In this document: in pieces, positions 6,462-61,150 of the stretch
Layout: each line of letters opens with the position of its first letter
Position numbering within the stretch: the stretch's first letter is position 1
Assembly: GCF_025950095.1 (NCBI RefSeq)
Contig: NZ_JAPDDR010000002.1
Location: 372,001 to 436,000 of the forward strand
Length of the DNA: 64,000 nucleotides
Reading direction: 5' to 3'
Source: Luteolibacter rhizosphaerae
GTDB lineage: Bacteria; Verrucomicrobiota; Verrucomicrobiia; Verrucomicrobiales; Akkermansiaceae
The notes under the pieces: generated by a model
What the model saw: the letters and a program-made list of their open reading frames with translations, nothing else
Databases searched by the model: none
Told to the model about the DNA's origin: nothing
Program-made: the position numbers and the translations under genes

Positions 6462-6574
6462 AATCTTTTTCCCCGCCGCCGGAGCGTTCCGGAGTGGCGA
6501 TCCCCGCAGAAGGCGTTTTCGCGGGACTTCGTGAAGCCGCGGTGATGGCTGTCTTCTATCGCGCGGTGCTTCCG

Positions 6575-6617
6575 TCTCGTCTTGTCCATTTCCCTAGGGG
6601 GGTGACACGAGATGAGA
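6575..6617 (+). repeat. CCTAGGGG palindrome, family 1, copy 1
   Basis: A 43-bp palindrome: arm TCTCGTCTTGTC..., centre CCCTAGGGGGG, arm ...ACACGAGATGAGA. The arms pair if G-U is allowed. It is the same 43-bp unit as 7051-7093 and 7149-7191, which are in the opposite orientation. Confidence 0.75.
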
Positions 6618-6649
6618 AGATCGCTTCCTGACCTCGGATCAAGGATCCC

Positions 6650-6695
6650 CGTCCCGTCCGTCCCACTAGCCTAGGGGAGTGGGACGGACGGGACG
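6650..6695. repeat. CCTAGGGG palindrome, family 2, copy 1
   Basis: The 18-bp arms are perfectly complementary (GTCCCGTCCGTCCCACT at 6651-6667 plus one flanking C-G pair), around the loop AGCCTAGGGG. The sequence differs from family 1 but the CCTAGGGG centre is the same. Confidence 0.8.
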
Positions 6696-6885
6696 AAGCG
6701 GGGAGTCGCGCGGCGGCAGAAGGTGGGTGGCGTGAAAGCGGAAGTGGTGGCAGGGAGGGAGTGGTAAGTAACTATTATATCTTCTTCTCTCTCTTCTCCT
6801 CACTCCTCCTGCCTTCCCCTGTGAACCGCGTTACGGCGAAAGCAGCCGCGCCATGACGAACGTGTCTCCCTTTTCCCGTGCCCAT

Positions 6886-6939
6886 GCTCTGTCCCGTCCG
6901 TCCCAACCCCCTAGGGGAGTGGGACGGACGGGACAGAGC
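6886..6939. repeat. CCTAGGGG palindrome, family 2, copy 2
   Basis: The 20-bp arms are perfect: GCTCTGTCCCGTCCGTCCCA at 6886-6905 and its complement at 6920-6939. The centre is ACCCCCTAGGGGAG. The core GTCCCGTCCGTCCCA is identical to the copy at 6650-6695. The outer bases differ yet still pair. Confidence 0.8.
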
Positions 6940-7050
6940 GGATGGGAGAGATCGCGGGTAGCGGGCAGTGACGATGGCGCGATAAGGACGTGGAGGATCG
7001 ATTCTCCTCTCTTCTGCGCGACCTGCTCCGTCCCCTCCCACGCCGATCCC

Positions 7051-7093
7051 TCTCATCTCGTCTCCCCCCCCTAGGGAAATGAACAAGACGAGA
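7051..7093 (-). repeat. CCTAGGGG palindrome, family 1, copy 2 (inverted)
   Basis: Read on the minus strand this 43-bp unit closely matches 6575-6617: TCTCGTCTTGTTCATTTCCC, then TAGGGGGGGG, then AGACGAGATGAGA. Arm substitutions preserve pairing. Confidence 0.75.
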
Positions 7094-7148
7094 CCGTCTG
7101 AAGCATCCTGCTGCACTGCCCGGTTCACGGTGCAGGCGCACCCGATCG

Positions 7149-7191
7149 TCTCGTCTCGACTCACCCCCCTAGGGAAATGAGCGAGATGAGA
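7149..7191 (-). repeat. CCTAGGGG palindrome, family 1, copy 3 (inverted)
   Basis: The 43-bp unit on the minus strand reads TCTCATCTCGCTCATTTCCC, then TAGGGGGGTGAG, then TCGAGACGAGA. It has the same layout as the other two family 1 copies. Several changes in one arm are matched in the other. Confidence 0.75.
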
Positions 7192-55444: not shown

Positions 55445-58084
<2,640 letters not shown>

Positions 58085-58096
58085 AATTTGCCATTG

Positions 58097-58119
58097 GTCA
58101 GTGGTCAATTGTCATCGGT
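58097..58119 (+). repeat. Left 23-bp inverted-repeat arm of the four-helix element
   Basis: GTCAGTGGTCAATTGTCATCGGT. It matches the inverted right arm (58500-58522) at 21 of 23 positions and contains GTCA at a 7-base spacing. It starts 13 bases after the gyrB stop. Confidence 0.85.
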
Positions 58120-58126
58120 GGAGAAT

Positions 58127-58507
58127 ATGAATGCTTCGATCAACGATCTCGAAATCTACCGCGAGTCAATGAGTCTCGCGGAGGTGATTTGGGATTCAGT
58201 TGGATCCTGGCCTCTGTTCGCGAAGGATACCCTCGGTAAGCAGATTGTGAGATCTGCAGACTCGATCGCCGCAAATCTTGCCGAAGGTTATGGCCGCTAT
58301 CATTTCAAAGAGAACCAGAAGTTCTGCTATTATTCCCGCGGTTCTTTGCAAGAAACCCAAACATGGATCGAGAAGGCCGTTAGACGCAATCTCATTCCCG
58401 ATGAAGCGGGTCGTGCCCTCTATCGAGAGTTCGATTTACTGAAGAAGCGACTCAACGCCTACATCCGCTCAATTGGCCCGGTCGAGTCTGACACGAGTGA
58501 CCGCTGA
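58127..58507 (+). CDS. Four-helix-bundle protein (23S rRNA intervening-sequence protein family)
   Basis: The 126-residue product carries the family signature: RSADSIAANLAEGYGR, then KFCYYSRGSLQETQTWIEKA, both typical of the small helical proteins first seen as open frames inside 23S rRNA intervening sequences of Leptospira and others. Related folds include the Avd accessory protein of diversity-generating retroelements. Function is unknown; RNA binding has been suggested. GGTGGAG lies four bases before the ATG at 58127. The stop codon (58505-58507) falls within the right inverted repeat. Confidence 0.93.
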   Translation: MNASINDLEIYRESMSLAEVIWDSVGSWPLFAKDTLGKQIVRSADSIAANLAEGYGRYHFKENQKFCYYSRGSLQETQTWIEKAVRRNLIPDEAGRALYREFDLLKKRLNAYIRSIGPVESDTSDR

Positions 58508-58522
58508 CCATTGACCACTGAC
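58500..58522 (-). repeat. Right 23-bp inverted-repeat arm of the four-helix element
   Basis: Read on the minus strand: GTCAGTGGTCAATGGTCAGCGGT. It differs from the left arm at two positions. It holds the stop codon of the four-helix gene and ends 9 bases before the gyrA start. Confidence 0.85.
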
Positions 58523-58531
58523 TTTTTCCGC

Positions 58532-61150
58532 ATGTCTCAGGATTCCATCAAGCCCATCAACGTCGCCGAGGAACTCTCGAACTCCTTCCTGGAGTACTCG
58601 ATGTCCGTGATTATCTCGCGGGCCCTTCCCGATGTCCGCGACGGCCTCAAGCCATCCCAGCGCCGCGTCCTTTACGCCATGCGCCAGCTCGGCGTGACGC
58701 CGGGCAAGGCCCACGTGAAGTGCGCCAAGATCGTCGGCGAGACGATGGGTAACTATCACCCGCACGGCGACCAATCGATCTACTCCACGCTGGTGAACAT
58801 GGGCCAGCCTTGGTCGATGCGCGAGATGCTCGTGGATGGCCAGGGTAACTTCGGCTCGGTGGAAGGCGATGCCGCCGCATCCATGCGATACACCGAGGCC
58901 CGTCTTCATCCCCTCGGGATGGCGATGATGGAGGACCTCGACAAGGACACCGTCGACTTCCAGCCGAACTACGATGGCTCGCAGGAGGAGCCCTCCGTGC
59001 TGCCTTCCGCTTTTCCGAACTTCCTGGTCAACGGCGGCACCGGCATTGCGGTCGGTATGGCCACGAACCTTGCCCCGCACAACCTGGGCGAGGTGATCGA
59101 GGGCATCTGCGCCCAGATCGATAATCCGGACATCACCCTGCCGGAGCTGATGGGCTATATCAAAGGGCCGGACTTTCCCGTTTCCTGCGAGATCCGCGGT
59201 ATTCGTGGTATCGAAGAATATTTCCGCACCGGTCGCGGCTCGATGCGTCTTCGCGGCAAGGTCGAGATCGAGGAGAACGAAGGTGGCAAGTCTCTGATCG
59301 TCATTCGTGAAGTGCCTTACGGCGTGAACCGCGCGGTGCTGCAGGAGCGCATCGCGGAGCTGGTGAACGAGAAGACGCTCACCGGCATCTCCGGCATGCG
59401 CGACCTCTCCGACGAGGAGACCCGCATCGAGATCGAGCTGAAGCGCGATGCCCGCCCTCAGGTGGTGATCGCCCAACTCTTCAAGCTCACCGCGCTGGAG
59501 ACCTCCTTCAGCGTGAACATGCTGGCGATTCACAAGAACCGCCCGAAGCAGCTTTCGCTGAAGGAAGCGATCGATGCCTACATCGAGCACCGCCGGGAAG
59601 TCGTCATCCGCCGCACGCGATATCTGCTCGGCAAGGCGGAGGAGCGGGCCGAGCTGCTCGAGGCATTCCTGCTCGCCTTGGGTCACCTCGATGACTTCAT
59701 CAAGATCATCCGCGATTCGAAGAATCGCGATGAAGCCCGCGAACGACTCGCGGCCTATCAGTTCAGCACGGCCACGGCCGAGGGGCTAGGAATCCTGATC
59801 CGCTCGCAGCCCGCGGTTCAGGGGGATCGCTACGTCTTCAGCGAGCGCCAGGTGAATGCCATCTTGGAACTCCGCCTCTATCAGCTCACCGGCTTGGAGC
59901 GCGACAAGGTCAAGGGTGAGTACGACGAGGTGCTCGCGACCATCAAGGACTTGCTCGATATCCTCGCCCGCGAGGAGCGCGTGCTCACCATCATCAAGGA
60001 CGAGCTCCGTGCGATCGGTGAGAAGTACGCCACTCCTCGTAGATGCCCGATCTTGGCGGAAGCCGGTGAGATCGCGATGGAAGAGCTCATCGCGAACGAT
60101 GCCATGATCGTTACCCTCTCGCATCGCGGCTACATCAAGCGCACCGCCGCTTCCGAGTACCGCCTGCAGGGACGCGGCGGCAAGGGCCTGAAGGGCATGG
60201 AGACCCGTGCCACCGGAAAGGACGAGCCCGACGACTTCATCGAGCATCTCTTTAGCGTTCAGGCGCACGACTACCTGCTGTTCTTCACGAATACCGGGCG
60301 CGTGTATGTCGAGCGGGTCTATGATCTTCCGGAAGGCTCCCGCACCGCGATGGGCCGCAGCATCAAAAACGTGCTCGACCTCAAGCCGGAAGAGAAGATC
60401 GCGGCCCTGCTCCGTCTGGAGCGCGCCACGGATGAGAATGGCAACGACGTCACTTTCCGCGAGGATGCCGGCTTTGTCTTCTTTGCGACCCGTAGCGGGA
60501 AGGTGAAGAAGACCGCTCTCAACGACTTCCGCAACTACCGCAAGGCAGGCCTTACCGCCATCATCCTGGAGGAGAACAACGAGCTCATTGGTGTCCGCCT
60601 TACCTCGGGATCGGATGAGATCGTCCTCGTCACCCACGAAGGCTTGAGCCTGCGTTTCCACGAGGACGATACCCGCTCGATGGGCCGGGCCTCGGCCGGC
60701 GTGATGGGCATCCGCCCGGTCGAGGGTGACTTCGTGGTCGGCCTCGCCCTCGTGACCCAAGGCTCCACGCTGCTGGTGGCTTCCGAGAACGGTCTCGGCA
60801 AGCGCACCTCATTCGAAGAGTACCGCAAGCAGACCCGCGGTGGTAAGGGCATCATCACCATGAAGGTGACTGACAAGACCGGCCCCGTGGTGGGCGCTGT
60901 CACGGTCACCGACGCGGATGAATTGATGCTCATGACCTCCACGGGTCAGAGCATCCGCATCCGGGTCAACGAGATCCGCGAAACCGGCCGCAATGCTCAA
61001 GGGGTTAAGTTGCTCACCTTGAAGGAGGGAGAGGCCCTTCAGGACATTGCGTTGGTGATCCCCGATGGCGAAGATGCCCCGGGCGAGGGATCGGAAGGGA
61101 CTGAAGATGCCACTCTGGAAGAGACGGATTCTCCAACCTCAGACGAGTGA
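58532..61150 (+). CDS. gyrA: DNA gyrase subunit A
   Basis: GyrA breaks and rejoins DNA and wraps it. The 872-residue protein has the winged-helix domain with catalytic Tyr120 (AASMRYTE), the tower and coiled coil, and a C-terminal beta-pinwheel with a GyrA box variant QGRGGKG (residues 546-552), which marks it as gyrase rather than topoisomerase IV. In the quinolone-binding helix the residues equivalent to E. coli Ser83 and Asp87 are Gln81 and Ser85 (HGDQSIYSTLV). The C-terminal tail is acidic (Glu/Asp-rich). The ATG at 58532 gives MSQDSIKPINV; it lies 9 bases after the right arm of the four-helix element. Confidence 0.97.
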   Translation: MSQDSIKPINVAEELSNSFLEYSMSVIISRALPDVRDGLKPSQRRVLYAMRQLGVTPGKAHVKCAKIVGETMGNYHPHGDQSIYSTLVNMGQPWSMREMLVDGQGNFGSVEGDAAASMRYTEARLHPLGMAMMEDLDKDTVDFQPNYDGSQEEPSVLPSAFPNFLVNGGTGIAVGMATNLAPHNLGEVIEGICAQIDNPDITLPELMGYIKGPDFPVSCEIRGIRGIEEYFRTGRGSMRLRGKVEIEENEGGKSLIVIREVPYGVNRAVLQERIAELVNEKTLTGISGMRDLSDEETRIEIELKRDARPQVVIAQLFKLTALETSFSVNMLAIHKNRPKQLSLKEAIDAYIEHRREVVIRRTRYLLGKAEERAELLEAFLLALGHLDDFIKIIRDSKNRDEARERLAAYQFSTATAEGLGILIRSQPAVQGDRYVFSERQVNAILELRLYQLTGLERDKVKGEYDEVLATIKDLLDILAREERVLTIIKDELRAIGEKYATPRRCPILAEAGEIAMEELIANDAMIVTLSHRGYIKRTAASEYRLQGRGGKGLKGMETRATGKDEPDDFIEHLFSVQAHDYLLFFTNTGRVYVERVYDLPEGSRTAMGRSIKNVLDLKPEEKIAALLRLERATDENGNDVTFREDAGFVFFATRSGKVKKTALNDFRNYRKAGLTAIILEENNELIGVRLTSGSDEIVLVTHEGLSLRFHEDDTRSMGRASAGVMGIRPVEGDFVVGLALVTQGSTLLVASENGLGKRTSFEEYRKQTRGGKGIITMKVTDKTGPVVGAVTVTDADELMLMTSTGQSIRIRVNEIRETGRNAQGVKLLTLKEGEALQDIALVIPDGEDAPGEGSEGTEDATLEETDSPTSDE

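Follow-up and report, generated by a model that had tools for sequence, protein, structure and literature searches.

The closest known system to the unit described here is the intervening sequence of 23S rRNA, which in Leptospira and Coxiella burnetii carries an S23p/intervening-sequence protein (IVP) ORF within complementary termini and is cut by RNase III (PMC4990558). According to the excerpts of that paper drawn on here, GACAGAT heptamers precede the S23p ORF in the Coxiella copy, whose stem is 28 bp long, and the authors regard the protein as probably not made and decaying (PMC4990558). The IVP of 23S rRNA is also listed, in a figure legend, among proteins associated with CRISPR adaptation modules (PMC10910872). 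Heptamers are described in intergenic DNA as well: a survey of 7006 genomes ranks them first in abundance among the tandem repeats of prokaryotic intergenic DNA and, in the excerpted text, sees no clear clue to what they do (PMC6344855), the GGGAATC heptamer of Xanthomonas, which forms 70 inverted pairs in one genome and 75 in another, is described as having no general link to mobile elements (PMC4692102, excerpts), and sets of TAACTGA heptamers occur in Beggiatoaceae (PMC4679880). These are 7-nt intergenic arrays, as are those that we report around IVP genes, but nothing in the excerpts of the three papers ties them to the IVP family (PMC4692102, PMC4679880, PMC6344855).

We analyzed a window of 64,000 nt in which a unit with the same ingredients, an IVP-type ORF and complementary, stem-forming termini, lies between two protein genes, gyrB and gyrA, and not inside 23S rRNA (positions 58097-58522). 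The upstream gyrB ORF spans 55445-58084 from its first possible start, and gyrA spans 58532-61150, with its ATG 9 nt past the right arm; both are on the + strand, and no Rfam match was found between 55000 and 61500. The left arm (58097-58119, + strand) is a heptamer array, GTCAGTG-GTCAATT-GTCATCG-GT, around which 7-nt periodicity begins at about 58086, and the right arm (58500-58522) is an inverted array, reading GTCAGTG-GTCAATG-GTCAGCG-GT on the - strand. The arms, each of 23 nt with three GTCA at 7-nt spacing, are short arrays of GTCANNN, which match at 21 of 23 positions (91% complementary) and stand 380 nt apart. The single gene between them (58127-58507, + strand; ATG at 58127, stop codon at 58505-58507, within the right arm) encodes a four-helix-bundle protein of 126 aa that scores 97.4 bits with PF05635 (cut-off 33.8) and 96.7 bits with TIGR02436 (cut-off 24). 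PF05635 is its sole Pfam match, and no transposase lies inside the repeats, unlike in a DNA transposon or insertion sequence. The profile match and the arm alignment bear out what a preliminary description had read from the letters, namely an IVP-family gene between 23-bp inverted repeats matching at 21 of 23 positions, with its stop codon in the right repeat and GTCA at 7-base spacing in both arms, the whole splitting the gyrBA pair.

Among solved structures, the sequence matches only XCC0516 of Xanthomonas (2gsc, chain 2gsc_A, E 8.5e-10), which is taken to be the X. campestris S23p homopentamer of four-helix bundles described in PMC4990558. Three further PF05635 genes are present in the same genome, two of which align with the window's protein at 19 and 29% identity and the third (L004) at 35% over a partial match; no near-identical copy of the window element was found there, which differs from the many such copies of a MITE or REPIN-like element. 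When the arm geometry was placed at random within the window, the score of the true arms (17) was reached by 3 of 2000 placements, all of them within another repeat cluster, at 6.6-7.2 kb, and apart from the gyrB-gyrA arm no array in the 64-kb window attains 16/21 matches at lag 7. In this other cluster (6570-7190), which sits downstream of what may be a tRNA (judged from the sequence alone), inverted repeats are centred on CCTAGGGG, and a GTCCCGTCCGTCCC hairpin occurs twice, together with CATTTCCCTAGGGGGGTGA arms.

IVP loci were then gathered without regard to their flanks or arms, from the same genome, its genus and its order (33), from named records (80), from a sample of the phylum (30) and from IVP-rich genomes (40), three of the 183 being duplicates that were left out. 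The set is not random, since the named loci are the best 80 of at least 578 from one pattern-limited genome scan and the last 40 come from IVP-rich genomes. Usable loci numbered 136 of 143 in a first set and 173 of 180 in the full set, those dropped having a short flank or an interrupted frame. For each locus, the inverted match between its own upstream and downstream regions was compared with the matches obtained with 40 swapped downstream regions. The results show that own arms exceeded all 40 swaps in 114 of 173 loci, with about 4 expected by chance (86 of 136 in the first set), and did so in every source: 25/32 among relatives, 48/75 among named loci, 18/29 in the phylum sample and 23/37 among multi-copy loci. 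Within the 136-locus set, the loci above all swaps include records titled Pseudomonas, Bacteroidales, Acidobacteria, Deltaproteobacteria, Clostridia and Lentisphaerae; neither of the Planctomycetota loci scored in that set (L079, L084) was among them. The arm-IVP-arm unit is thus real and widespread, gene and inverted repeats recurring together across loci as the compact unit that had first been proposed from the window. The preliminary description had also treated the link between this protein family and such DNA repeats as one not known to be described. For terminal inverted repeats it is already on record in the 23S rRNA intervening sequences (PMC4990558); outside rRNA we found no account in the openly licensed literature joining IVP genes to heptamer arrays.

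The 7-nt period is as general as the matching of the arms. Lag-7 arrays were present on both sides of the gene in 102 of 173 loci, compared with 0 of 123 far-flank control pairs, while two-sided arrays at lags 5, 6, 8, 9 and 10 numbered 0, 0, 9, 2 and 1 among the same 173. A strong lag-7 run, scored independently of arm matches, was found upstream (220 nt) in 64 of 136 loci and downstream in 78 of 136, compared with 3 of 130 in far flanks 680-900 nt upstream; each of the remaining lags from 4 to 12 reached 0-9 of 136 loci. Array length peaks at 4 and 5 units (73/135 on the left, 82/136 on the right), the two sides of a locus being correlated (rho 0.33, p 8e-4), and the arrays fit the gene tightly, with a median of 20 nt from the end of the left array to the start codon and of 4 nt from the stop codon to the right array. 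One could suppose that an ordinary gene happens to lie beside neutral slippage arrays, heptamer repeats being common in intergenic DNA (PMC6344855, excerpts), but the inverted matching at nearly two thirds of loci and the lack of two-sided arrays in the controls make this highly improbable. Thirty-five of the 173 loci have neither matched arms nor two-sided arrays, and these count against the binding-and-copying explanation that we propose below.

Phase alignment of 82 of the 86 loci with matched arms in the first set gave a repeat unit of (A/G)G(T/G/A)NNNN when each end is read inward, with a consensus score of 130 compared with 93 +/- 3.6 for permuted columns. The GACAGAT heptamer of the Coxiella intervening sequence, when rotated to AGATGAC, fits this (A/G)G unit. 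Beyond the shared dinucleotide the words diverge: 69 distinct consensus heptamers were found among the 82 loci, the commonest, AGTTTTC, occurring six times, so that sites mostly have their own repeat word around a shared (A/G)G. We also compared heptamers with proteins at unrelated sites, using 108 of the 114 loci of the full set. Heptamer similarity was 0.43-0.45 below 55% protein identity, 0.51 at 55-70% and 0.66 in the five pairs above 70%, and the similarity of pairs at 45% identity or more exceeded all but 2 of 5000 permutations. Such a weak rise makes a strict one-heptamer-one-protein recognition unlikely, and we therefore rejected the idea that each protein recognises a fixed heptamer.

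Orientation was assigned by a longest-ORF rule, which classified 131 of 143 loci, 100 of them by a stricter rule. Among these 100 confident loci, both flanking genes run in the direction of IVP in 63 and in the opposite direction in 8, the other 29 being divergent or convergent junctions. This preference for the sense strand at tandem junctions (63 vs 8) is what one would expect if the unit were an RNA-level element, that is, an intervening sequence outside rRNA whose arms pair in the operon transcript and are cut by RNase III, releasing the IVP message and separating the flanking ones, with selection on the RNA stem keeping the arms matched. The predicted RNA fold indeed pairs the arms of the window unit (z -4.2), and the 23S rRNA intervening sequences act in this way, including that of Coxiella with its heptamers and stem (PMC4990558, excerpts). 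However, maintenance of an RNA stem would favour G-U-compatible differences, and these are not in excess: arm mismatches at the 114 loci comprise 68 G-U-compatible and 82 A-C type differences (G-U-compatible share, 95% interval 0.37-0.54, in a test of limited power), and those of the smaller set of 86 loci comprise 53 and 65. In addition, none of the 80 named loci matches an rRNA model, and gene-less arrays occur, some of them within coding sequence. We thus set aside RNA-stem upkeep as the cause of arm matching, within the limited power of the mismatch test, and consider the RNA-level reading rather unlikely as a whole; as regards the matching of the arms, the RNA-level basis that the preliminary description had raised as possible gains no support from the mismatch test. 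The lack of an RNA signature in the arm mismatches, a further difference from the 23S rRNA intervening sequences, favours copying at the DNA level.

Orthologues at the same site bear on this point, as their words differ between species while each species tends to keep its own two arms alike. Own arms matched better than cross-species arms in 26 of 39 orthologue pairs (mean 17.3 vs 12.9), counting as a non-win the gyrB-gyrA pair, where the own scores are 17 and 12 and the cross scores 9 and 12; counting it as a win gives 27 of 39. By site, the proportion was 10/15 at metK-ahcY and 13/15 at argD-argF, compared with 2/6 at pheS-pheT and 0/1 at nuoI-nuoJ, and the results at these last two sites stand against the copying explanation. 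At the junction studied in genus g3, each arm of genome G164 comprises about six units, compared with about four in each arm of its relatives (counted by eye).

Presence at any one junction is patchy. Within the genus, the unit is missing from most gyrB-gyrA junctions, being present in 2 of 18 genomes, and IVP genes were found at metK-ahcY in 6, at pheS-pheT in 4 and at argD-argF in 6 of 17 genomes (apart from gyrB and gyrA, the junction genes are named from a reading of their translations). At metK-ahcY, IVP-free junctions can measure as little as 14-15 nt, and some of the junctions lacking IVP carry apparent array remnants (argD-argF in G005, G008 and G012, by eye; pheS-pheT in G004). On a four-gene tree of the genus, in which 7 of 15 inner branches are weakly supported, the minimum number of presence changes is 2 at gyrB-gyrA, 5 at metK-ahcY, 4 at pheS-pheT and 5 at argD-argF. 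Outside the genus, an IVP gene of the window's subfamily (62% identical) stands at gyrB-gyrA between matched GTCA arms in G031, a member of another family, and the same junction of G027, from a third family, holds an IVP remnant of that subfamily. Given these two occurrences, the gyrB-gyrA element looks like an old, often-lost resident of the order. The protein itself is under purifying selection in the two pairs whose dS is not saturated (dN 0.02/dS 0.21 and dN 0.04/dS 0.28), a result with which the view of the Coxiella authors, that S23p is probably not made there, is at odds (PMC4990558).

The gyrB-gyrA junction also looks like a hot spot. A larger, different insert with related ORFs occupies it in 4 of 18 genomes (L040, L041, L043 and L044, in G008, G010, G005 and G011, respectively), and sequence resembling the end of that insert lies just upstream of the IVP element in G031 (by eye). 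At the g3 junction, two unlike IVP versions (proteins 53% identical) sit between flanks that are 87-95% identical, a pattern suggestive of replacement or of independent arrival. IVP genes that are broken, or appear so, with array sequence still adjoining, were seen at the same junction in G060 (L339) and G099 (L327).

Mobility of the element is plausible. In REPIN/RAYT systems, a gene is flanked by inverted repeats, further copies of which lie elsewhere without the gene; the RAYT protein belongs to the tyrosine HuH transposases, and the repeats form one sequence family. IVP units share with them both the gene between inverted repeats and the gene-less copies, as the preliminary description had led one to look for: in the same genome, L180 and L182 are inverted heptamer pairs some tens of nucleotides apart with no gene between, that is, miniature versions of the element. 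A strict transposase-less mobile element, with arms serving as terminal inverted repeats for an enzyme acting in trans as REPINs do for RAYT, would account for these hairpins, for the patchiness across junctions of the genus and for the two versions at the g3 junction, as well as for IVP genes on 19 of 72,556 plasmid records (Nostoc accounts for 10 of the 19, and 6 are typed conjugative). The arms, however, are not constant between sites as the ends of a single transposon family would be, most IVP sites having their own heptamer, and IVP has no known enzyme activity. Moreover, no precise target duplication was found at insertion sites, filled and near-empty junctions showing none by eye and having spacers that differ widely; the closest pair within one genome, among the copies compared, is 88% identical and 2.3 kb apart, with the next at 72%; the gyrB-gyrA site is orthologous across families; and one IVP query found no match in 50,697 phage records. 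We consider this reading unlikely. Mobility, which the preliminary description had raised as a possibility, is not supported as a recent event for the gyrB-gyrA unit, for which neither a target duplication nor a near-identical copy was found and whose IVP gene stands between gyrB and gyrA in another family too. Plasmid copies were also tried as a means of defining the element ends and were rejected, two Calothrix copies lying within a longer shared stretch according to gene tables.

To account for the layout and its spread, the locus-specific words, the arm matching, the sense orientation, the patchiness and, in the pairs tested, the purifying selection that we observe, we propose a binding-and-copying mechanism, to which we give a probability of roughly one half. 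The unit is a single-gene element made of a left heptamer array, the IVP gene and an inverted right heptamer array, living mostly in the gap between co-directional genes and read their way. Its arms would act, and stay alike, as DNA, one arm being copied from the other by template switching or by conversion between inverted repeats, and slippage would alter the number of units in 7-nt steps. IVP, as a relative of the Xanthomonas protein that has been reported to form a pentameric ring (PMC4990558), may bind the G-rich strand of the array, each subunit taking up a single (A/G)G heptamer, and arrays of 4-5 units would suit such a ring. Such binding could bring the two ends into contact, favour the copying of one from the other and, on rare occasions, allow a move to a different hairpin or junction. 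The gyrB-gyrA copy is best seen as a long-standing resident of the order that has been lost repeatedly. Several further observations weigh against this mechanism: the weak tie between heptamer and protein, the 29 of 100 confident loci outside co-directional gaps, array counts that do not clearly differ between genomes with and without IVP, the arms of PF13366 genes, the view that S23p is decaying in Coxiella (PMC4990558), and the fact that we know of no enzyme activity of IVP. Nor do we know of any other function of this protein family. Avd of diversity-generating retroelements, which belongs to the same four-helix-bundle pentamer fold group as IVP, is a nucleic-acid-binding partner of reverse transcriptase. 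Since IVP was named after rRNA inserts, its tie to heptamers gives both a testable partner, the question being whether the protein binds, builds or copies arrays, and offers a lead on why intergenic heptamer repeats are so common. Ends that differ by site and yet match each other would be an unusual way of maintaining element termini. Where housekeeping genes are concerned, as at gyrase, pheST, metK-ahcY and argDF, the layout may influence their expression.

Arrays also occur without IVP. In the genome of the window, a GTCANNN triple has 27 matches compared with 17 for a control pattern. One IVP element (L001) and one gene-less array (L170) of this genome have GGGAAACAGCCGT in common, just inside the arm. 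Genomes with and without IVP contained 9 vs 4 arrays at a threshold of 16, 3 vs 3 at 17 and 1 vs 2 at 18 (400 kb each, G060 being taken as IVP-free in spite of its apparently broken IVP sequence), and heptamer density was rejected as a marker of IVP genomes, for lack of a clear difference in 2 x 400 kb. Genome G123, which has no PF05635 match, carries gene-less GTTGAGA arrays (L320, positions 17644 and 18383; L319, position 9852), which are in frame and encode LSTLNSQ-type peptides; they are located within a gene that, by eye, seems to encode a P-type ATPase, and at the beginning of a further ORF. These arrays, the gene-less remnants at argD-argF noted above and the weak heptamer-protein link would all agree with an origin in which the arrays come first, as self-propagating heptamer hairpins that fill intergenic gaps, IVP homing into their loops and not making the arms. 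We find this doubtful, because of the tight fit of the arrays to the start and stop codons and because the 7-nt period goes with IVP and is rarely shown by the arms of another family, PF13366.

PF13366 genes (L361-L390, 29 of 30 loci used) have own arms exceeding all swaps in 22 of 29 cases. Their strict period is weak, with lag 9 in 4/29 upstream and 3/29 downstream and lag 7 in 1/29 and 0/29. The presence of similar arms around these genes without IVP indicates that IVP is not the sole maker of arms and that arms belong to a wider class of genes, in which the period may follow the protein family. The two families tend to co-occur: by hand counts over 59 genomes, 24 have both, 2 PF13366 only, 16 IVP only and 17 neither (Fisher p 5e-4, kinship ignored). 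Extending the binding-and-copying reading, we tentatively suggest, as a possibility that we hold less firmly, that IVP genes and, at other spacing, PF13366/GxxExxY nuclease-like genes might together define a broad class of bacterial elements, each with one gene, that end in two short tandem arrays matched to each other in place of a fixed sequence. Each site would write its own word, copied to the other end at the DNA level, with a word length set by the protein family; arrays and their remnants would then be a main source of the unexplained heptamers of bacterial genomes, and the rRNA intervening sequences a special case. A GxxExxY-like gene (by eye) lies at pheS-pheT of G017 (L214), and the arms of PF13366 genes have, by eye, a spacing of about 8-10 nt, as in CACGGANNN.
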